From positions 62,001-126,000 of the forward strand of contig JAGXIH010000020.1 of the NCBI GenBank assembly GCA_024635795.1: a stretch of DNA of 64,000 nt, given 5' to 3'. The DNA is from Salegentibacter sp. GTDB lineage: Bacteria; Bacteroidota; Bacteroidia; Flavobacteriales; Flavobacteriaceae. Positions within the stretch are counted from its first letter, which is position 1, and the number at the start of each line of letters is the position of its first letter. Both the position numbers and the translations under genes were made by a program. A model generated the notes under the pieces. It was not told the DNA's origin. It ran no database searches and saw only the letters and a list, made by a program, of their open reading frames with translations. Of this stretch, positions 5,919 to 48,388 are shown piece after piece.

Positions 5919-6338
5919 TTACTTATTTTTTGGTAAAGCGATAGTTGTGAGTTTCACAAGCGAGATCAGGTTGTTCTCCTCATCGGTAATCTTTATTTCC
6001 CAAAGTTGAGTGGTACGTCCTTTATGGATAAAACTGGCTTTAGCATAAACAAAACCTTCAGAAATACTTTTTAAATGATTAGCCGAAATCTCAATCCCGC
6101 GAATAAAAAACTCTTCGGTATTCAAAAAAACATAACTGGCCATACTTCCAACGCTTTCTGCAAGGGCTACGCTGGCCCCTCCGTGTAACACGCCGTCCGG
6201 CTGATGTACTTTTGAAGTTACCGGCATTCTTGCAACGAGATAATTGTCTCCTGCTTCAGTAAATTCAATATCAAGGGTTTCCATCAATGTGTTTTTGCAC
6301 ACTTTTCTGGAAAGCTCCAGAATTTCTTCTTGGGTCAT
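5919..6338 (-). CDS. menI: DHNA-CoA thioesterase, hotdog fold (MenI)
   Basis: This 139-residue hotdog-fold protein closely resembles E. coli MenI/YdiI, which hydrolyses 1,4-dihydroxy-2-naphthoyl-CoA. The signature GVLHGGASVALAESVGS lies at residues 49-65, with the catalytic Glu61, and the HKGRTTQLWEIKI strand follows. I chose the ATG at 6338. An open frame continues upstream to 6518, but those 60 codons do not look like protein, cover a dispersed repeat and overlap the divergent hydrolase gene. It abuts menF, which supports a menaquinone role over phenylacetate metabolism (PaaI). Confidence 0.9.
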   Translation of the reverse strand: MTQEEILELSRKVCKNTLMETLDIEFTEAGDNYLVARMPVTSKVHQPDGVLHGGASVALAESVGSMASYVFLNTEEFFIRGIEISANHLKSISEGFVYAKASFIHKGRTTQLWEIKITDEENNLISLVKLTTIALPKNK

Positions 6339-6367
6339 CACAATAAGATTGGTTACTTTGTCAACTA

Positions 6368-6473
6368 CCTCGGGGCAAGCCCACGAAGTATTATAGAAAA
6401 ATATTTTGATTTTGAGGCCCGCCTGCGGAACGGGCAGGCAAACCTCAAAACATTTAAAATCTCGATTATCGAG
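6368..6473. repeat. Dispersed repeat, CGGGGCAAGCC / CTCGATTATCGAG type
   Basis: The element contains TCGGGGCAAGCCCACGAAG (6370-6388), a GC-rich palindromic centre around GCCTGCGGAACGGGCAGGC (6421-6439), and the palindrome CTCGATTATCGAG (6461-6473). The same blocks occur at 32710-32785 in the other orientation. It fills the divergent spacer between menI and the hydrolase gene. Confidence 0.7.
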
Positions 6474-6488
6474 TAAAAATACGTAAAA

Positions 6489-7130
6489 ATGAGCAACAAG
6501 AAACAGGTTTCCTACCAAAGCACCAATACCTATGAGGTTTTAAACACTTTCAGTCCTAAGACTAAAAACGTTTGGGTGGTTTGCCACGGCATCGGTTATT
6601 TGAGTCGGTATTTTCTGAAATATTTCAAACATTTAAACCCGGAAGAGAATTACATCATCGCCCCGCAGGCTCCCTCCAAATACTATCTCAGCGGAAAATA
6701 CACCCATGTGGGCGCCTCCTGGCTCACCCGCGAAAACACCGAATTGGAAACCGAAAATGTGCTGAACTATCTCGATGAAGTCTATAAAGCTGAAAATCTG
6801 CAAGATGCGCCAAAACTTCTCCTGTTTGGTTATTCCCAGGGAGTTTCGGTGGTTACAAGGTGGGCTGCAAAACGAAAGATTGCCTGTGATCACTTGATAA
6901 TGCATTCAGGAAAGGTGCCTGCGGAATTAAATCCTGAAGATTTCTCTTTTCTGAAAAACACAGGCTTTTCTTTTATCTATGGCAAGCAGGATGAATATTT
7001 AAAAGATGGTGTCATTAAAAAAGAAAAAGAACGCCTGAAAGAAATATTTCCAGCAAATTTGAAGATTCACAGTTTTGAAGGCGGGCACGAGGTGAGCAGA
7101 GAATTGATTACTGAAATAGCAGAAATTTAA
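6489..7130 (+). CDS. Predicted esterase, alpha/beta-hydrolase fold
   Basis: This 213-residue cytosolic protein belongs to the carboxylesterase/phospholipase (YpfH/lysophospholipase-like) branch of alpha/beta hydrolases. It shows the oxyanion segment VVCHGIGYLSRYF (30-42), the nucleophile elbow FGYSQGVS with Ser116, a likely acid in FIYGKQDEY (near residue 168-176) and the final His in EGGHEVS. There is no signal peptide. The substrate cannot be told from the sequence. It is divergent from menI, and a palindrome with a T-run directly after its stop should end its transcript. Confidence 0.85.
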   Translation: MSNKKQVSYQSTNTYEVLNTFSPKTKNVWVVCHGIGYLSRYFLKYFKHLNPEENYIIAPQAPSKYYLSGKYTHVGASWLTRENTELETENVLNYLDEVYKAENLQDAPKLLLFGYSQGVSVVTRWAAKRKIACDHLIMHSGKVPAELNPEDFSFLKNTGFSFIYGKQDEYLKDGVIKKEKERLKEIFPANLKIHSFEGGHEVSRELITEIAEI

Positions 7131-7132
7131 TT

Positions 7133-7150
7133 AACCCTTGCAGGGTTTTT
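7133..7150 (+). terminator. Hairpin terminator after esterase gene
   Basis: AACCCT/AGGGTT arms (7133-7147) separated by TGC are followed by a T-run and start 2 bases past the esterase stop. The sequence also belongs to the ACCCTTGCAGGGTT repeat family seen at 8484 and 25213. Confidence 0.6.
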
Positions 7151-7221
7151 GGATTAAATTGCAAAATCCGATAATCCTTTTAAATTTATATTCATAAAAT
7201 TAAAACTAACTCCACTGATTT

Positions 7222-8475
7222 TTGAAAAATAAAGAACTCCTGAAAAGCATAGGCCCCGGATTCCTGCTGGCGGGAGCTGCCATTGGAGTATCTCATTTGG
7301 TGCAGGCTACCCGCGCCGGCGCCGATTACGGTTTCATCTTAATCTGGGTACTTATTCTTGCCTGTATCTCTAAATATCCTTTTCTGGAATTTGGCCCCCG
7401 TTATGCGGCAGCTACCGGGCAGCATCTAATCTCGGGTTATAAACGCCTGGGAAAATTCCCCTACTGGATTTACATTTTTATTACCATCGGGAGTATGTTT
7501 ATCATCCAGGCGGCAGTTACCATTGTTACTGCGGGCCTTGCAGAACGCCTTTTCAATTTTGGATGGTCGCCTTTTATCTGGAGTCTGACAATTCTTGGGG
7601 CTAGTATTGCCTTGCTTTTAATCGGAAAATATCCCGGCCTGGATAAGAGTATGAAGGTAATCGTGAGCTTGCTAACTTTGGCCACACTCTTCGCCGTAAT
7701 TATGGCTTTTGGCGCAGGCACGCTGGAAACTGCCATAGAAACCAAAGCCCCTTCATTATGGACCACCGCAAGTCTGGGGTTTATTATCGCTTTTATGGGG
7801 TGGATGCCAATCCCGCTTGATGCTTCTGTCTGGCATTCTATATGGACCCGGGAAAAAGCAATTCAGAGCAAACAGAAAACCTCGGTTAAAGGAGCTTTCG
7901 TCGATTTCAATGTAGGATATCTTGCCGCTGCATTTATTGGTTTGCTGTTTTTCCTGCTGGGAGTTTTAGTGATGTTTGGCAGTGGCTCTTCCTTTTCAGG
8001 AAATAGTGTGGAATTTTCCAGCCAGCTGGTGGAACTCTACGGAAAAACCCTGGGAGCCTGGAGCAAACCCTTAATCTCTGTCGCTGCTTTCATCGCTATG
8101 CTGAGTACAGTAATCACCGTAACCGATGCCTTTCCCCGTGTAATTTCAGAATTAAAAGATCCGGAGAAAAATACCCTGAAAGACAGAAAACAAAAATGGA
8201 AGATCTACAGCTGGGCTGTCTTTCTTATTCCGGTTTTTTCGCTTTCCATATTATTCTTTCTTTCAGGTTCCTTTACGATTTTGGTGGATTTCGCCGCCGG
8301 ACTTTCATTTCTCTCGGCACCTTTTTTAGCCTGGTTTAATTACAAACTCGTCACCGGAAAACAAATGCCCAAAAGACACCGCCCGGGCAAAAAATACCGC
8401 ATCTTCAGCCTGGTTTGTTTCTGGTTTTTGGTGCTGTTTAATCTAGGATATTTGTATTATAGTTTTTTGGTTTAA
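7222..8475 (+). CDS. Divergent NRAMP-family transporter
   Basis: This polytopic membrane protein of 417 residues has about 11 hydrophobic segments and the NRAMP opening GPGFLLAGAAIG. The metal-coordinating DPGN motif of helix 1 is replaced here by GVSH. The helix-6 MPH region reads GWMPIPLDASVW. Canonical Mn/Fe uptake is therefore doubtful; another cation or a different substrate of the LeuT fold is possible. The start is TTG at 7222, which precedes the conserved KELLKSIGPGF opening. It stands alone between two hairpins and is not linked to a MntR/Fur-like gene. Confidence 0.82.
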   Translation: MKNKELLKSIGPGFLLAGAAIGVSHLVQATRAGADYGFILIWVLILACISKYPFLEFGPRYAAATGQHLISGYKRLGKFPYWIYIFITIGSMFIIQAAVTIVTAGLAERLFNFGWSPFIWSLTILGASIALLLIGKYPGLDKSMKVIVSLLTLATLFAVIMAFGAGTLETAIETKAPSLWTTASLGFIIAFMGWMPIPLDASVWHSIWTREKAIQSKQKTSVKGAFVDFNVGYLAAAFIGLLFFLLGVLVMFGSGSSFSGNSVEFSSQLVELYGKTLGAWSKPLISVAAFIAMLSTVITVTDAFPRVISELKDPEKNTLKDRKQKWKIYSWAVFLIPVFSLSILFFLSGSFTILVDFAAGLSFLSAPFLAWFNYKLVTGKQMPKRHRPGKKYRIFSLVCFWFLVLFNLGYLYYSFLV

Positions 8476-44320: not shown

Positions 44321-44953
44321 CTATATCAGATATATTTTATGTTTTATGGCAAATAACACCAGGCCAATCCGGCTGCGCACGTTGAGTTTATTGAAAAGAC
44401 TTTCGCGATAACCGTCTATGGTCTTCGGACTTAAATTCATCTTTGCAGCAACCTGTTTGTAAGTCATTTCAGAACAGGCCAGGCCTAGAAACTCCATTTC
44501 CCGCGCACTAAGATTTTCAAAGGCTTTTGCCTTTCCGTGATTTTCTATGGCTTCAGAAACCGTATCGGTATAATAGTAACCTTCGTAGATCACCTGCTTC
44601 AGCGCATAACGGAATTCATCGGGGTCTATATCTTTAAGTAAATATCCGCGGCAGCCAAGTTTCACCATTCTAAAAATGGTTTCCTCATCATCCTCCATCG
44701 TTAATGCCAGCACTTTTTGTTCGGGATACTTATCCTTTAGCCAGACCATAGTTTTGGGCCCGTCCATAACCGGCATTTTTATATCCAGAAGAACGATATC
44801 GGGTTTTGGGCGGTTGGCACCAAAGAACTCCACGAGTTCCTGGCCATTTTTATAAAGCCCAGACACCTCGAACTCCCCAAAAGAATTCACCAGGTTTTGT
44901 AAAGATTTTGCAAATAGATTGTGATCATCTACAATTGCGACCGTTTTACTCAT
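44321..44953 (-). CDS. LuxR/NarL-family response regulator
   Basis: This 210-residue transcription factor has a receiver domain (residues 1-120) with the acidic pair Asp9/Asp10 in AIVDDHN, phospho-acceptor Asp57 in IVLLDIKMP, and Lys in YLLKDID. The LuxR-type HTH (about 145-208) includes LSAREMEFLGLACSEMTYKQ and NLSPKTIDGYRESLFNKL. The ATG at 44953 starts the receiver domain and lies 2 bases after the kinase stop. It is the output of the two-component pair at the end of the duplicated-module unit, and plausibly regulates that unit. Confidence 0.93.
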   Translation of the reverse strand: MSKTVAIVDDHNLFAKSLQNLVNSFGEFEVSGLYKNGQELVEFFGANRPKPDIVLLDIKMPVMDGPKTMVWLKDKYPEQKVLALTMEDDEETIFRMVKLGCRGYLLKDIDPDEFRYALKQVIYEGYYYTDTVSEAIENHGKAKAFENLSAREMEFLGLACSEMTYKQVAAKMNLSPKTIDGYRESLFNKLNVRSRIGLVLFAIKHKIYLI

Positions 44954-44955
44954 AA

Positions 44956-45738
44956 TTATTCTTGCACCTTGGTTGGATAGGCTAAATATAAGCAAGTTCC
45001 CGCACCTGGTGAAGAATCAAGCGAAAACTTAGTGTTTACCAGTATTGCCCGGCTTTCCATATTAAAGAGTCCGGAGTTCTTTGAGATGCTTTCCTTATCG
45101 AATCCCTTCCCGTTATCACAGGCTTTGATTCTTATCTCTTCAGGATCATAGGCTATAGAAACATCCAGATTTGAAGCCTGCGCGTGCTTGATAACGTTGG
45201 AAAAGAACTCCTGGAGTATTCTGAATAAAATTATGCTGTGTTGCTGCGGAATCTCCTGGTTTTCTCCTGAAACTTCCAGGTTGGTTTCAATAACGCCCAT
45301 CCGCTGAAACCTTTCCAGTTCATTTTCTACGGAAGTGTCTAAACCGGCATAACCAATCACCTGATTGTTCAGGGATTTTGACAGCGAGCGCACTTCCCGA
45401 AGCGAATTGGCCACGGTTTCTTTAATTTCCAGGGCTGAAGCTTTCTCGGCTTCCGCGAGGTTTTTTGAAAAAATATTAAGCTGCATATTGGCAACTGATA
45501 GTAACTGACCAATATTATCGTGCAATTCCCAGCCTACATTCTTCAAGGTTTGTTCCTGCATTTCTATACGCGAACTGGCTATTTCCCGCTCAAAACGCTG
45601 TTCGGTTTCATATTGCTCCTGTAACATCTTGTTTTTTCGTTTTTGGTACACCACGAAAAATACGATCACAAATGCAGTAAGCAGCAGAATTACTACAATA
45701 AAGTATACAATAAGTAAAAGTTCTTCTTTAGAGAGCAT
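44956..45738 (-). CDS. Sensor histidine kinase without sensor domain
   Basis: This 260-residue kinase is of the HisKA_3 (NarX/DegS) class. One transmembrane helix (about 8-30) is followed by a coiled coil (about 32-68), the phospho-acceptor His in VGWELHDNIGQLLSVA, and an HATPase_c domain with FFSNVIKHAQA (N box), ACDNGKGFD (G1) and SPGAGTCLYL. There is no periplasmic or PAS/GAF input domain. Its start overlaps the 3' end of the upstream membrane-protein gene by 11 bases, suggesting that the membrane protein supplies the signal. The ATG at 45738 is chosen; a longer frame exists to 45792. Confidence 0.9.
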   Translation of the reverse strand: MLSKEELLLIVYFIVVILLLTAFVIVFFVVYQKRKNKMLQEQYETEQRFEREIASSRIEMQEQTLKNVGWELHDNIGQLLSVANMQLNIFSKNLAEAEKASALEIKETVANSLREVRSLSKSLNNQVIGYAGLDTSVENELERFQRMGVIETNLEVSGENQEIPQQHSIILFRILQEFFSNVIKHAQASNLDVSIAYDPEEIRIKACDNGKGFDKESISKNSGLFNMESRAILVNTKFSLDSSPGAGTCLYLAYPTKVQE

Positions 45739-46444
45739 TTTGTAATTTTTTAGGGTAAGTCTTTCTCTTTTTGGCCAGCCATAAAAAAGCAATGCTGTAG
45801 GAACTATACATAAGAATATTCATTGCAATTAAAACAATACTACTAAGTTCAACAAATTCCGGACTTTTGTTTGTAAAATATTTAAAATAAATAATAATAG
45901 GAGTTGTGCAGAGAAAATATAAAAGCGCAGCAAAAGAAATGTAAAAACTAATTTCCCTTTTTATAATTAAAATTTTAGAACTCAATAAAATTTCGAAATA
46001 ATAATAAAAAATCACTCCCAACAGAAAAATACTCCCTAAAACAAAAGTTACTGCAGAATTACTTTGGAAAAATACATCTGAAACTATTAAATTGACAATA
46101 CAGATTAAAACATAAACAATCAGAAGTTTATCAATAAGCTTTCCTATTTTCTCGTTTAAAATATTCCATCTAAAATATAGAATATAACTAACAAAACTGA
46201 TAATAAGATATGGATTAAAAAGCCAGAAGTTTCTATACCAAAAAGTATTTTTAAGAAAATGTAAGGGTTCATTCCAATAAATTATCGCAGGTATGAATCC
46301 AATAGTTTCAACGAAAAATGTAAACAATAAAAAATACGAGAAAAACCCAATCGCCTTATCAGTTGGGTTTTTCCGGTAATAATATAAACCGGATATTGCT
46401 GCAACAGCCTCAAGTAAAAATACCAGAAATCTGAGATCTTGCAT
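45728..46444 (-). CDS. Polytopic membrane protein, module copy 1
   Basis: I do not recognise this protein. It has 238 residues with about seven hydrophobic segments and no signal peptide. It is paralogous to the gene at 46952: FLKNTFWYRNFWLFNP corresponds to FLKDSPFSRNTWYFNL, and SSKILIIKREISFY to SDKILNFKRNLFFY. The ATG at 46444 overlaps the stop of the small soluble gene (TGATG), and its own end overlaps the kinase. The codons are strongly AT-rich. A receptor-like role for the adjacent sensor-less kinase is inferred. Confidence 0.8.
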   Translation of the reverse strand: MQDLRFLVFLLEAVAAISGLYYYRKNPTDKAIGFFSYFLLFTFFVETIGFIPAIIYWNEPLHFLKNTFWYRNFWLFNPYLIISFVSYILYFRWNILNEKIGKLIDKLLIVYVLICIVNLIVSDVFFQSNSAVTFVLGSIFLLGVIFYYYFEILLSSKILIIKREISFYISFAALLYFLCTTPIIIYFKYFTNKSPEFVELSSIVLIAMNILMYSSYSIAFLWLAKKRKTYPKKLQNAL

Positions 46445-46830
46445 CAATAGTTAGTTGGAGGCCAGCCTGAGGTAATAATATTCATTGGCTCAATCTCATA
46501 ATTATTAGGATCGGAATCTTCTTCAGCACTTTCCGGCTCTCCTGGTGCTTCTTTGGTTGGTGCCAGGAACACCGTAGCGTAGCCTTTTTTCTCTTTTGTT
46601 TTAGGATAAGCGCCCAAATAAAACCGAATTCCCGGTTTCTCTACGCCCTGTCCTTTAGATTTCTCCCGAACATAGTCAAGATACTCCTGCAATTCATCCA
46701 GGCTGTACCAGAATTCGCGGGTATCTTCATAGCCCTGCCCCCGCTGTATTTCTTTTCCGCGAGTACGCACCCATTCATCCTGTTCTTTTCGTGCCTCCTC
46801 AACGCTGATGCATTTTTTTGGCTTTTTCAT
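46444..46830 (-). CDS. Small soluble protein, module copy 1
   Basis: This unrecognised 128-residue hydrophilic protein has no signal peptide. It is paralogous to the gene at 47727, sharing KPKKCIS at the start, TRGKxIxR (about 23-30), EYLxYVxEKS (about 50-59), TVFLxxTK (about 86-93), a Glu/Asp/Pro-rich linker, EIEPxN, and a terminal WPPxxY. The fold is unknown. It is co-translated with the membrane protein that follows. Both copies are preceded by the same palindromic leader (see 46836-46877). Confidence 0.8.
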   Translation of the reverse strand: MKKPKKCISVEEARKEQDEWVRTRGKEIQRGQGYEDTREFWYSLDELQEYLDYVREKSKGQGVEKPGIRFYLGAYPKTKEKKGYATVFLAPTKEAPGEPESAEEDSDPNNYEIEPMNIITSGWPPTNY

Positions 46831-46835
46831 ATGAT

Positions 46836-46877
46836 TGGTTTTTGGTTGGTTTCCTTAAAATTTTGTTAAGCTAAATC
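46836..46877 (-). promoter_or_regulatory. Duplicated palindromic leader, copy 1
   Basis: The segment contains CTTAAAATTTTGTTAAG (46854-46870), a palindrome with CTTAA/TTAAG arms, flanked by TGGTTTTTGGTTGGTT and GCTAAA. Nearly the same sequence lies before copy 2. It begins 5 bases before the start codon. Confidence 0.6.
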
Positions 46878-46951
46878 TATATAAAGTTTTTGAGGAAAGC
46901 AACTCTTTAAATAAGAAGAAAATAAGCTTCATTATATGTAATTAAGTGCCT

Positions 46952-47704
46952 TCATCTAACTTCACTTGTTTTTAATTCCCGATTTTCTGTTCTATTAAAA
47001 ATGACTGCCATAAATCCAATAACATACATTCCATATAGAAAAACGTTAGCATACCTCAAAACACTAGCAAAAAGATTAATAAAATCAGGATTAGCTTCCA
47101 GAAAGTAAACGGAGTAAATATTTATAGGCTGGACGATCAAAAAGTAAATTAATATCCCGGTAAAAACGTAGAAAAACAGGTTTCTTTTAAAATTTAGAAT
47201 CTTATCACTGGTAAGCAAATCATATAAATAAACGCCTACACTTACTGAAATCCATATTGCTCCAACCAACAATATTGGTACGTTATAAGCCTGAAAAATA
47301 TCACTCCCAAGCAGAATTAAACCGATAGAATATATGAGGTATATACCAGTACCACGTCTAATAAAAGTTTTTAATTTAGGATTTAAAATTTCCGACTGAA
47401 TAAAATAAGAATAACACAGGATGAAGTAAATCTGTGCTAAATTAAAATACCAGGTATTTCTTGAAAATGGAGAATCTTTTAAAAAAGAAGCTGTTTGATA
47501 ATTATCAAAATAAGCCCATAATGAATATCCCCCTAAAACATCAATGATAAAGACCGACCATAGAAAATATACAAAAAATCTTTTATTCTTAGCGACTTTG
47601 GGATGCAGGACCAAGAAAATACTGCCTGTGAAAGCAGCTAAAAATTCCATCAAGAAAGTTACATATATCTTCTTTTCAATATAGAATTCAAAAAGCTCGT
47701 TCAA
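46952..47704 (-). CDS. Polytopic membrane protein, module copy 2
   Basis: This unrecognised 250-residue membrane protein has about seven hydrophobic helices. It shares with the copy-1 protein the FLK-x(4)-RNxWxFN block, the SDKIL-x(2)-KR block, and the tail SVxxxxNxxxYxxYxIxF. The start is TTG at 47704; the next ATG (19 codons on) would remove the start of helix 1. It follows its small partner after 22 bases. A 121-base spacer with the second leader separates it from copy 1. Confidence 0.75.
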   Translation of the reverse strand: MNELFEFYIEKKIYVTFLMEFLAAFTGSIFLVLHPKVAKNKRFFVYFLWSVFIIDVLGGYSLWAYFDNYQTASFLKDSPFSRNTWYFNLAQIYFILCYSYFIQSEILNPKLKTFIRRGTGIYLIYSIGLILLGSDIFQAYNVPILLVGAIWISVSVGVYLYDLLTSDKILNFKRNLFFYVFTGILIYFLIVQPINIYSVYFLEANPDFINLFASVLRYANVFLYGMYVIGFMAVIFNRTENRELKTSEVR

Positions 47705-47726
47705 AAATTTTAAATTTTAAATAAAA

Positions 47727-48116
47727 TTATTCCCCATAAACACCGGGAGGCCATAAACCACTGCCTGTATTATACGGTTCGATTTCAGGATTATCCTCAA
47801 AATCTGATTCTTCTTCCTCTATGTTTTCCGATTTCGGTTTAGTAGCCGAAAGAAATACCGTGCTCAGACTTGGTTTTCCATTTCCAGGGGCATAAGATCC
47901 CATCCAGATACAAACTCCGGGATCTTCAATTCCTTTTTCTCCAGATTTTTCTTTTACATACTTAAGATACTCTTCTAATTCAGCCACACTAAATTTCACG
48001 GCGCAAACATCCTTGTGCTTCTCTGATCTTTCAATGGCTTTTCCTCGGGTTTTCCACCATCTTGATTGAAGGTCTTTCGCCTCCTGGCGGGAAATGCATT
48101 TTTTTGGTTTTTCCAT
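47727..48116 (-). CDS. Small soluble protein, module copy 2
   Basis: This unrecognised 129-residue hydrophilic protein is the paralogue of the one at 46444, and the first gene of the six-gene unit. Conserved blocks run MEKPKKCIS, TRGKAIERS, EYLKYVKEKS, STVFLSATK, an acidic linker (EEEESDFEDN), EIEPYN and WPPGVY. Cys7 is shared with copy 1; the other two (Cys38, Cys69) are not. It has no signal or membrane segment, so it is expected in the cytosol. Confidence 0.8.
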   Translation of the reverse strand: MEKPKKCISRQEAKDLQSRWWKTRGKAIERSEKHKDVCAVKFSVAELEEYLKYVKEKSGEKGIEDPGVCIWMGSYAPGNGKPSLSTVFLSATKPKSENIEEEESDFEDNPEIEPYNTGSGLWPPGVYGE

Positions 48117-48118
48117 AA

Positions 48119-48162
48119 TTTTGGTTTTTGGTTGGTTAACTTAAAATTTTGTTAAGCTAAAA
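48119..48162 (-). promoter_or_regulatory. Duplicated palindromic leader, copy 2
   Basis: CTTAAAATTTTGTTAAG (48140-48156) lies in the same flanks (TTGGTTTTTGGTTGGTTAA and GCTAAAA) as at 46836-46877. Conservation of a non-coding palindrome in front of both copies suggests an operator or RNA element. Confidence 0.6.
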
Positions 48163-48227
48163 TTAGTGAAAATTCCTGGAGCTTAAAAAAACCGGGAGCG
48201 AATACGAGACTACCAAAGGTTTAAAAT

Positions 48228-48302
48228 AAAAAAGTGCCGTCTTGGTTTATCGGAAAACTAACTACCCTACCAATTAGTTTTCCACCTTAACGACACTTTT
48301 TT
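48228..48302 (-). terminator. Leader hairpin with T-run, possible attenuator
   Basis: Outer arms AAAAAAGTG (48228-48236) and CACTTTTTT (48294-48302) enclose a perfect 10-base inner stem, GGAAAACTAA (48252-48261) with TTAGTTTTCC (48274-48283). On the minus strand it ends in TTTTTTATTTT. It lies between the promoter and the first gene of the six-gene unit, so it could be an attenuator or end a short RNA. It could also be bidirectional. Confidence 0.6.
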
Positions 48303-48338
48303 GCCCCAAAACACTTTAGCTAACTAAAATGACTGATA

Positions 48339-48369
48339 CAAATGTAGACGAAGGTATACTTGTCTACAA
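48339..48369 (-). promoter_or_regulatory. Promoter with dyad operator of the six-gene unit
   Basis: On the minus strand TACATTTG (48339-48346) is a perfect -7 TAnnTTTG, with TTG (48367-48369) 20 bases upstream as the -33 element. The inverted repeat TGTAGAC-N12-GTCTACA (48343-48368) overlaps both boxes, as an operator would. Confidence 0.6.
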
Positions 48370-48388
48370 GGGGAAAAATCCCCTTTTT
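48368..48388 (+). terminator. Small GC hairpin with T-run
   Basis: AAGGGGA and TCCCCTT flank four A residues and are followed by TTT on the plus strand. It lies just upstream of the minus-strand promoter, downstream of pxpC. It may insulate the two units. Confidence 0.45.

Follow-up and report, generated by a model that had tools for sequence, protein, structure and literature searches.

A small protein, a seven-helix protein and a two-component pair: an undescribed cassette that may let flavobacteria recognize one another

Introduction

Why would a bacterium encode, twice in succession and directly ahead of a histidine kinase and its response regulator, a small protein and a membrane protein that match no described family? 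The question is raised by a stretch of 64,000 nucleotides of Salegentibacter sp. DNA (the window). We report here the cassette, its recurring linkage, the co-variation of two of its parts within one genus, a small RNA encoded beside it and the pattern of a palindrome upstream. Many flavobacteria carry one undescribed cassette, in which a small protein with a changeable tail (A), a seven-helix protein (B), a histidine kinase (HK) and a regulator (RR) appear to form one relay, and through which these bacteria may recognize one another.

Organization of the cassette

In the window, six genes follow each other in the order A1-B1-A2-B2-HK-RR, all of them on the minus strand (Table 1). A1 and A2 share 44% identity (E 7e-28) and B1 and B2 29%, which bears out the sequence-only reading of two paralogous pairs followed by a kinase and a LuxR-type regulator. 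The overlaps noted in that reading are equally present: TGATG (46442-46446) is common to the A2 stop and the B2 start, and 11 nt (45728-45738) are shared by B2 and HK; gaps of 22 nt and 121 nt separate A1 from B1 and B1 from A2, respectively. Two of its elements need to be amended. The duplicated module, although real in the window, is not the general arrangement, as 38 of the 63 long loci considered below hold a single A-B-HK-RR set, and the unit, whose genes do occupy 44321..48116, extends to about 48385 when the RNA gene and its promoter are taken in.

Table 1. Features of the cassette locus, in positions of the window
Feature	Position	Strand	Description
RR	44321..44953	-	Response regulator, 210 aa, receiver and GerE (LuxR-type) domain
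HK	44956..45738	-	Histidine kinase, 260 aa, HisKA_3 and HATPase_c, single N-terminal hydrophobic segment
B2	45728..46444	-	Membrane protein of 238 aa with seven helices, N-out/C-in; proposed as receptor
A2	46444..46830	-	Small soluble protein, 128 aa
A2 C-terminal tail (IEPMNIITSGWPPTNY)	46447..46494	-	Proposed ligand part; co-varies with B; pLDDT <50 at residues 123-128
CTTAACAAAATTTTAAG	46854..46870	-	A2 leader; identical to the copy in the A1 leader
B1	46952..47704	-	Membrane protein of 250 aa, read from a TTG start, with an internal ATG as the alternative
A1	47727..48116	-	Small soluble protein, 129 aa, KPKKCIS ... WPPGVY; no family match
A1 C-terminal tail (IEPYNTGSGLWPPGVYGE)	47730..47783	-	One position differs in genus relative G031 (L073)
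CTTAACAAAATTTTAAG	48140..48156	-	A1 leader
Small RNA gene	48225..48334	-	About 110 nt, 5' end estimated
RNA -7 promoter element TACATTTG (TAnnTTTG)	48339..48346	-	T46 A47, T50 T51 T52 G53 invariant in 26/26 sequences
RNA -33 element TTG	48367..48369	-	20 nt ahead of the -7 element; not TTG in two L043 copies
Proposed RR operator AAGGGGATTTTTCCCCTT (palindrome)	48368..48385	.	Ahead of the RNA promoter; predicted

Linkage and distribution

Whether the pair recurs next to a HisKA_3 kinase and a regulator of the LuxR type had been set beforehand as the test of a system, and it does. Among 63 distinct long loci, selected by similarity to A alone and counted, for linkage and paralogues, after removal of five duplicates, B adjoins A in 63; 62 have HK and 50 have RR. 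Two of the 13 loci without RR are truncated by the locus end, and one is also devoid of HK. Short loci, with flanks of only 1.5 kb, gave B in 93/93 and HK in 90/93, some of them being the same genome places as long loci and some duplicates being included. Furthermore, A, B and HK stand together in 65/65 loci of a set that includes those of two further genera. Searches with A were positive in 125 of the 299 family genomes sampled (E 0.001) and, at E 1e-12, in 48 of 118 genomes of a genus outside the family as well as 37 of 199 of a further genus; the B family is present in 185 of the 299.

Neither A (about 130 aa) nor B (seven transmembrane segments) matched a described family in Pfam, NCBIfam and further library searches, in line with the earlier failure to recognize any family for these module proteins. 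Together with the recurring linkage, this supports the proposal of an undescribed signaling system, a function that we infer.

The proteins of the cassette

The domains of HK (HisKA_3 and HATPase_c) and of RR (Response_reg and GerE) all pass the Pfam gathering cut-offs, which confirms their earlier assignment, and the two genes, a HisKA_3 kinase and a receiver-GerE regulator lying 2 nt apart, constitute a two-component pair. In HK, one short N-terminal hydrophobic segment leads into HisKA_3, and no sensor domain, nor anything further, rises above the Pfam cut-offs. PMC5350093 reports LuxR solos in Flavobacterium psychrophilum.

The seven-helix character suspected for the membrane protein agrees with the AlphaFold2 model of B2 (seven helices, pLDDT 87) and with the loop charges, the predicted inner loops being richer in basic residues than the outer ones in 24/24 B proteins. 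Against GPCR-type structures, Foldseek gave E 0.1-1.6, TM <=0.55 and 8-16% identity; the arrangement is consistent with theirs, but scores of this kind are like those of unrelated helical bundles, and therefore provide no evidence of common descent. Moreover, the B profile matched no PDB sequence up to E 1, and the Pfam domain 7TMR-DISM was absent from B1, B2 and the 24 B proteins scanned. The variability of B is not concentrated on its outer face (p=0.22; p=0.13 in a second test), and the columns associated with the tail of A are not biased towards that face (15/25 vs 65/111).

In turn, A2 is modeled with helices at residues 10-30 and 44-60, strands at 67-75 and 84-92, and a tail end of low confidence; the tail, roughly PxNxxxGGxPPxxY, is probably disordered. 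A crude rule applied to 173 A proteins, some duplicates among them, distinguished 104 without signal peptide, 48 lipoprotein-like and 21 with an N-terminal membrane segment. Since A thus comes in soluble, lipoprotein-like and anchored forms, no single compartment can be assigned to the tail, and the export of the soluble forms is left unexplained. Mean dN/dS was 0.33 for the tail, 0.39 for the linker, 0.13 for B, 0.13 for HK, 0.06 for the A body and 0.07 for RR, averaged over the 11 closest loci and over pairs with dS <3 only (45-55 of 55 pairs), dS being near saturation.

Co-variation of the A tail with B

In 13 Salegentibacter loci, HK and RR are conserved while the tail and B vary. The last 11 residues of A follow B closely in a partial rank Mantel test given HK, RR and the A body (r=0.84, p=0.0001; jackknife range 0.77-0.87), whereas the 16-residue tail gave r=0.20 (p=0.13) with HK, given RR and the A body, and r=-0.25 with RR, given HK and the A body. 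Left out of these tests were L036, whose B contains an assembly gap, L039, which belongs to another genus, and G031, which is without a module of the A2-B2 type. Once L041 and L042 are removed, the tail correlates with HK at r=0.35 (p=0.049); for the A body and B, r is 0.61 with the swapped L041 and 0.16 without it. Indeed, L041 and L044 differ by a module swap: their HK and RR are 93% and 95% identical, yet A is only 74% and B 35%, and the DNA profile concurs.

Judged from these sequences, the A tail and B are a polymorphic, putative specificity module beside a conserved HK-RR pair in Salegentibacter, where B distance is 0.33 at an HK distance of 0.075; in control genera with a near-fixed tail it is 0.10 at 0.05-0.07. 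Across many genera (42 loci) the tail-B coupling is weak, with r=0.15, not above the tail-HK value of r=0.18. Neither are tails clearly shared between A paralogues with a common B: tail identities were 50, 69, 94, 50, 31 and 69% in six such pairs, and 50, 44, 50, 50, 31, 19, 31, 62 and 62% in nine pairs in which each A has its own B.

A proposed relay and its alternatives

The chances seem to us evenly balanced that the cassette is a self-contained relay, in which the tail of A would be the ligand of a receptor B that acts through HK and RR on the RNA or on A. A would carry a signal or be its precursor, with the specificity set by the C-terminal tail, and would be exported even in the forms without signal peptide. 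B, with its N-terminus outside, would read the tail as a separate receptor and might then pass the signal to HK, with its one membrane anchor and no recognizable sensor domain, in that presumed direction; HK would phosphorylate RR; and RR would bind AAGGGGaWWWWtCCCCTT beside a -33 element. In several lineages such an operator before A would mean autoinduction, and in Salegentibacter and its near relatives it would drive a dedicated small RNA as output, with targets that may be supposed. The relay is weakened by the several forms of A, by the lack of an outer-face bias in B, by the weak coupling of tail and B across genera and by the patchy occurrence of the palindrome before A in g240 and other soluble-A loci.

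A-B alleles are exchanged together while HK-RR stays constant, as would be expected of kin, strain or density recognition. Going further, Bacteroidota could have here a peptide-type system for recognition between cells: a GPCR-shaped separate receptor would read a hypervariable tail and signal, through a sensorless HK and a LuxR-type RR, to a dedicated and sometimes duplicated RNA, with swappable ligand-receptor alleles; this reading we put forward tentatively, at somewhat less than an even prospect.

The strongest alternative, although rather doubtful, is a stress or nutrient sensor, with A and B as a constant membrane sensory complex similar to UhpC-UhpB or LiaF-LiaS. The tail would merely dock A on its own B, the stimulus would be chemical or physical, and the divergence would be that of co-evolving subunits. 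It would fit the NCBIfam likeness of HK to UhpB and LiaS and of RR to NarL-type regulators, all under the equivalog cut-offs, as well as the occurrence of A in soluble, lipoprotein-like and anchored form, which suits a docking subunit. The tail is, moreover, almost fixed in two other genera (g127 and g240); allelic signal-receptor polymorphism like that of agr is seen in one genus only. The divergence of B in g240 still runs at twice that of HK (slope 2.06; 1.02 in g127). However, neither fast divergence of tail and B over a near-invariant A body nor the swap of a whole module under a fixed HK-RR is expected of a simple sensor that has one module in each genome.

It could also be argued that the co-variation is mainly linkage, neighboring DNA having moved together by homologous recombination with no contact between the proteins. 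The tail adjoins or overlaps B in the DNA, and therefore co-inheritance does contribute to the correlation; B is further correlated with the linker that precedes the tail (r=0.47), and its last quarter with the start of HK (r=0.37, p=0.03); mosaic alleles are seen. Linkage as the main cause is nonetheless improbable, as the correlation does not fall over the 700 nt of B (0.67, 0.70, 0.72 and 0.66 for its successive quarters in the 13 loci; 0.51, 0.54, 0.62 and 0.67 in the 11 closest), and no other 11-residue window in the A body, HK or RR equals the tail (0/458, the best at 0.59).

The small RNA and the palindrome

A covarying small RNA, newly found here, is encoded upstream of the cassette. 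It is laid out as a 5' hairpin, a GUUUUGGGGC linker, a long hairpin with an invariant GUAGGG in the loop region and a U-run terminator; its alignment has 97.2% of cells paired, with 12 pairs changed on both sides (0/500 shuffles as high), and its fold has z=-7.0. The RNA alignment comprises 25 sequences, L039 being included only in the DNA alignment of 26. The TAnnTTTG (-7) and TTG (-33) elements are taken, by the promoter consensus, to be its promoter. No Rfam family was matched above the gathering threshold. Genome searches, in which part of the first-look candidates were scored (12 per genome, then 150), yielded 20 strong matches across 15/15 genomes of the genus, all at the cassette locus. 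The pairing of its loop or linker with the A leaders was not distinctive in comparison with other gene starts.

An RNA on the ACAAGGGG strand, or a short reading frame, was considered and rejected, G-U wobble pairing and the terminator favoring the opposite strand. The rejected strand still folds, with z -5.7.

The palindrome AAGGGGaWWWWtCCCCTT is located before the RNA promoter or before A. In 26/26 RNA elements (21 exact, 5 slightly changed) it lies directly ahead of the invariant TAnnTTTG, and in g127 it precedes a TAnnTTTG before A in 23/23 loci. Against 100 shuffles per locus, which preserve base composition only, it is found upstream of A at p<=0.01 in 23/23 g127 loci, 6/6 tandem loci and 7/8 of the lipoprotein class, but only in 7/14 g240 loci and 12/32 rows of other soluble-A loci (10/25 distinct, 7 rows being second copies of the same genome places). 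Loci without an adjacent RR gave a significant match in 0/10, the adjacent RR having been directly checked in 1/23 g127 and 2/14 g240 loci. In the Salegentibacter upstream regions inspected, the palindrome occurs only at the RNA promoter and not at A, and hence nothing there points to autoinduction of A in Salegentibacter. Only RR and the RNA are kept in the relative G100, between the same neighbors (A and B were sought in the genome searches, HK within 14 kb); from this and from the palindrome we infer that RR controls the RNA.

That the GGGGAWWWWTCCCC palindrome would instead be the terminator of the preceding gene seems distinctly improbable: its halves can pair into a hairpin with T behind it, and the convergent odhB-like and retropepsin-like genes of other Salegentibacter have a similar palindrome between them, but its position before TAnnTTTG in all 26 RNA elements and all 23 g127 loci and the 0/10 in loci without adjacent RR speak against this. 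Finally, that the RNA is a mere leader or attenuator of the A-B-HK-RR operon is very improbable, given that it reads towards A in the window (ending about 110 nt before A1), G031 (L073) and L036, but points away from A in the other 12/15 loci of the genus, where the palindrome lies 154 to 1225 nt ahead of the A frame, and persists in G100 without A, B and HK.

Relation to known systems

The closest parallel to the proposed relay would be agr of staphylococci (AgrD-AgrB-AgrC-AgrA, with RNAIII), where a ligand precursor, a membrane protein, a kinase and a regulator likewise share one operon, the polymorphic signal and membrane protein are swapped as alleles, and the regulator has few sites, one of them before a regulatory RNA beside the operon. 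Unlike agr, the cassette belongs to a different phylum and has neither AgrD nor the AgrB peptidase family, which was matched by neither B1 nor B2 (Pfam, NCBIfam) nor the 24 B proteins (Pfam); its receptor is apparently separate from the kinase, and its regulator is LuxR-type, Pfam finding GerE and not LytTR in RR. ComQXPA of Bacillus combines polymorphic pheromone and receptor parts with a conserved LuxR (GerE) output regulator, but its receptor lies within the kinase, whereas here it would be a separate protein beside a conserved kinase; no polyprenyl synthase match, as for the isoprenyl transferase ComQ, was found by Pfam among the six cassette proteins. In UhpC-UhpB-UhpA and LiaF-LiaS-LiaR, as in the proposed relay, a HisKA_3-type kinase that is paired with a LuxR-type regulator answers to a separate membrane protein. 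B1 and B2 (Pfam, NCBIfam) and the 24 B proteins (Pfam) match neither LiaF nor UhpC, and we know of no counterpart of A or of the RNA in those systems. As for GPCRs, their partner is a G protein, while that of B would be a histidine kinase.

A literature search, confined to listings and abstract openings, with most subscription papers and preprints beyond reach, found neither the cassette nor a peptide-type recognition system of these bacteria. Should the model hold, this would be a widespread undescribed signaling system, whose ligand, receptor, regulator site and RNA output could all be put to the test; it would also offer a receptor physically apart from its own kinase and a natural case of ligand-receptor co-evolution. 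Since the exact core of the palindrome occurs only 1-5 times per Salegentibacter genome, the direct output of RR would be quickly testable.

A recurrent exact-core palindrome between convergent genes elsewhere in the genus was set aside as a terminator; further exact-core sites in the genus include L178, L181 and L186.

Organization and recurrence of the cassette

The genome of the window is Salegentibacter-like, and all six genes (A1, B1, A2, B2, HK and RR) are encoded on its minus strand, with the overlaps described in the sequence-only reading borne out by the gene calls. HK, the histidine kinase, carries HisKA_3 and HATPase_c domains and RR, the response regulator, a receiver and a GerE domain, all above the Pfam cut-offs. 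No convincing family match was found for A, the small soluble protein with a variable C-terminal tail, or for B, the seven-helix membrane protein, in Pfam, NCBIfam, PHROGs, PADLOC or PDB sequences.

That reading had also named the linkage of module, kinase and regulator as a check, and this linkage recurs: among distinct long loci, chosen by similarity to A alone, B is present in 63/63, HK in 62/63 and RR in 50/63 (two of the RR-less ones are truncated by the locus end), and the short loci, partly the same places, have B in 93/93 and HK in 90/93. The plain order A-B-HK-RR accounts for 38 of the 63 long loci; A-B-A-B-HK-RR occurs in four, the window counted in, and A-A-B-HK-RR in three, and the remainder include longer arrays carrying B remnants. 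The B remnants of L073 and L089 are signs of module loss or displacement.

A was found in 15/15 genomes of the genus, in 125/299 of the family (single-sequence search), in 37/199 of genus g127 and in 48/118 of g240, a genus of another family (we tentatively take these two genera to be Flavobacterium and Chryseobacterium, respectively), and B in 185/299 family genomes. A phylum-wide sample has A in 21/247 genomes, just two of them outside the order, both weak. The sequence shared by the leaders of A1 and A2 (Table), of which a number of other Salegentibacter have the variant CTTAACAAAAAATTAAG, is not the candidate operator.

Table. Positions of cassette features and of related observations in the loci compared
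Feature	Sequence	Positions	Strand	Remark
Operon	window	44321-48116	minus	
Palindrome	window	48368-48385		beside small-RNA promoter
CTTAACAAAATTTTAAG, leader of A2	window	46854-46870		identical to A1 copy
CTTAACAAAATTTTAAG, leader of A1	window	48140-48156		identical to A2 copy
RNA and RR alone	L202 (genome G100)	6134-8300		
B-gene remnant	L073 (genome G031)	8163-8447		95 aa, between intact B and HK
Further B remnants	L089			
Assembly gap within B	L036	5387-6565		370 N; flanking sequence repeated on either side
Unusually long A-family frame	L062	4347-5405		353 aa, counted stop to stop
Unusually long A-family frame	L063	4737-5513		259 aa, counted stop to stop
GGGGAWWWWTCCCC palindrome	L180, L182, L184, L187, L190	~1501		between convergent odhB-like and retropepsin-like genes

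Co-variation of the tail of A with B

Across the 11 closest Salegentibacter loci, divergence amounts to ~9% in the A body, 15% in HK and 14% in RR, and to 25% in B and 39% in the last 11 residues of A. Over 13 loci, tail and B distances are correlated at r=0.84 (p=0.0001; partial rank Mantel, with HK, RR and the A body controlled); r stays at 0.77-0.87 when any single locus is dropped, and 0/458 windows of 11 residues in the A body, HK and RR match the tail-B value. For a tail of 16 aa, partial Mantel tests gave r=0.20 (p=0.13) against HK, with RR and the A body controlled, and r=-0.25 against RR, with HK and the A body controlled; leaving out L041 and L042, tail and HK reach r=0.35 (p=0.049). 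A body and B are correlated at 0.61 with L041, a Salegentibacter locus with an apparently swapped A-B pair, and at 0.16 without it. By quarter of B, the tail-B coupling is 0.67, 0.70, 0.72 and 0.66 (0.51, 0.54, 0.62 and 0.67 for the 11 closest loci only), a level course that argues against simple linkage decay.

Between L041 and L044, identity is 93% for HK, 95% for RR, 74% for A and 35% for B; at the DNA level it is 83-95% over HK-RR, 69-79% over A and 39-58% over B, and divergent intergenic stretches flank the operon on both sides. With HK and RR close but A and B divergent, the A-B pair appears to have been replaced while HK-RR stayed constant. In g127 and g240 the tail hardly varies, and B distance is 0.10 in either genus, the HK distance being 0.07 and 0.05, respectively; Salegentibacter, with the swapped L041 counted in, has a B distance of 0.33 at an HK distance of 0.075. 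Over all distances, the slope of B on HK is 1.02 in g127 and 2.06 in g240.

We propose a relay in which the tail of A would act on B, B on HK, and HK on RR, which in turn would act on the RNA (or on A). Its weak points are the compartment of the soluble A, the targets of the RNA and the want of an outer-face signature in B, where an outer-face excess was absent for variable and for tail-linked columns alike. We read the A-B pair as a candidate specificity module. Counting against this are the lack of outer-face preference and the weak coupling over 42 loci drawn from many genera, where tail-B (r=0.15) is no better than tail-HK (r=0.18). The main rival explanation is a stress or nutrient sensor, of which A would be the docking subunit. 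Nothing on the cassette, the RNA or the operator was found in open-access papers, preprints not included, and to the extent of these searches all three are undescribed under relay or sensor alike.

The small RNA and a candidate operator

Salegentibacter-type loci carry a conserved element of ~170 nt upstream of A, which reads, on the terminator strand, palindrome AAGGGGATTTTTCCCCTT, TTG, 20 nt (in the window), promoter element and an RNA of ~110 nt. The promoter element is TAC(A/T)TTTG in 23/26 copies and TATATTTG in 3/26; TAnnTTTG is the promoter consensus of the phylum. The window copy of the RNA folds at -39.6 kcal/mol (z -7.0), and its opposite strand at -25.3 kcal/mol (z -5.7). When 25 sequences are aligned, 97.2% of cells are paired, dropping to 43-54% when partners are slid, and in 12 pairs both partners have changed (48 cells, against 11.5 in shuffles; 0/500 as high). 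No Rfam family was found for the RNA. A covariance model gave 20 strong matches in 15/15 genus genomes, five of which have two copies, every match lying at the cassette locus, and the next best in these genomes has an E of 0.03. Degenerate AACCGAGAACTGA-type repeats separate RNA from A in several Salegentibacter (L033, L037, L044).

Under stricter filters, the RNA is present in 6/299 genomes of the family sample. In one of them, G100, the flanking genes are as in the window, and RNA and RR are the sole remaining cassette parts between them; A, B and HK were not found at this locus, nor is G100 among the genomes with A or B matches. We read the locus as a natural deletion that would tie the RNA to RR.

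The palindrome, proposed as the RR site, is exact in 21/26 RNA elements and slightly altered in five, and each of the 15 genus genomes has 1-5 copies of its core GGGGAWWWWTCCCC and none of the reversed control. With a matrix derived from the RNA promoters, the 300 nt upstream of the first A were scanned and compared with 100 shuffles of the same base composition per locus. Matches at p<=0.01 were obtained in 23/23 g127 loci, in each of which TAnnTTTG and then A follow, in 6/6 tandem, 7/8 lipoprotein and 7/14 g240 loci, in 12/32 rows (10/25 distinct) of other soluble-A loci, and in 0/10 loci with an RR-less operon; RR next to HK was confirmed for the tandem and lipoprotein loci, one g127 locus and two g240 loci. 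RR presence and palindrome therefore tend to co-occur, which suggests that autoregulation of A may be the older wiring, re-used for the RNA in Salegentibacter. The GGGGAWWWWTCCCC palindrome of the convergent gene pair (Table), recurrent in Salegentibacter, is probably a terminator.
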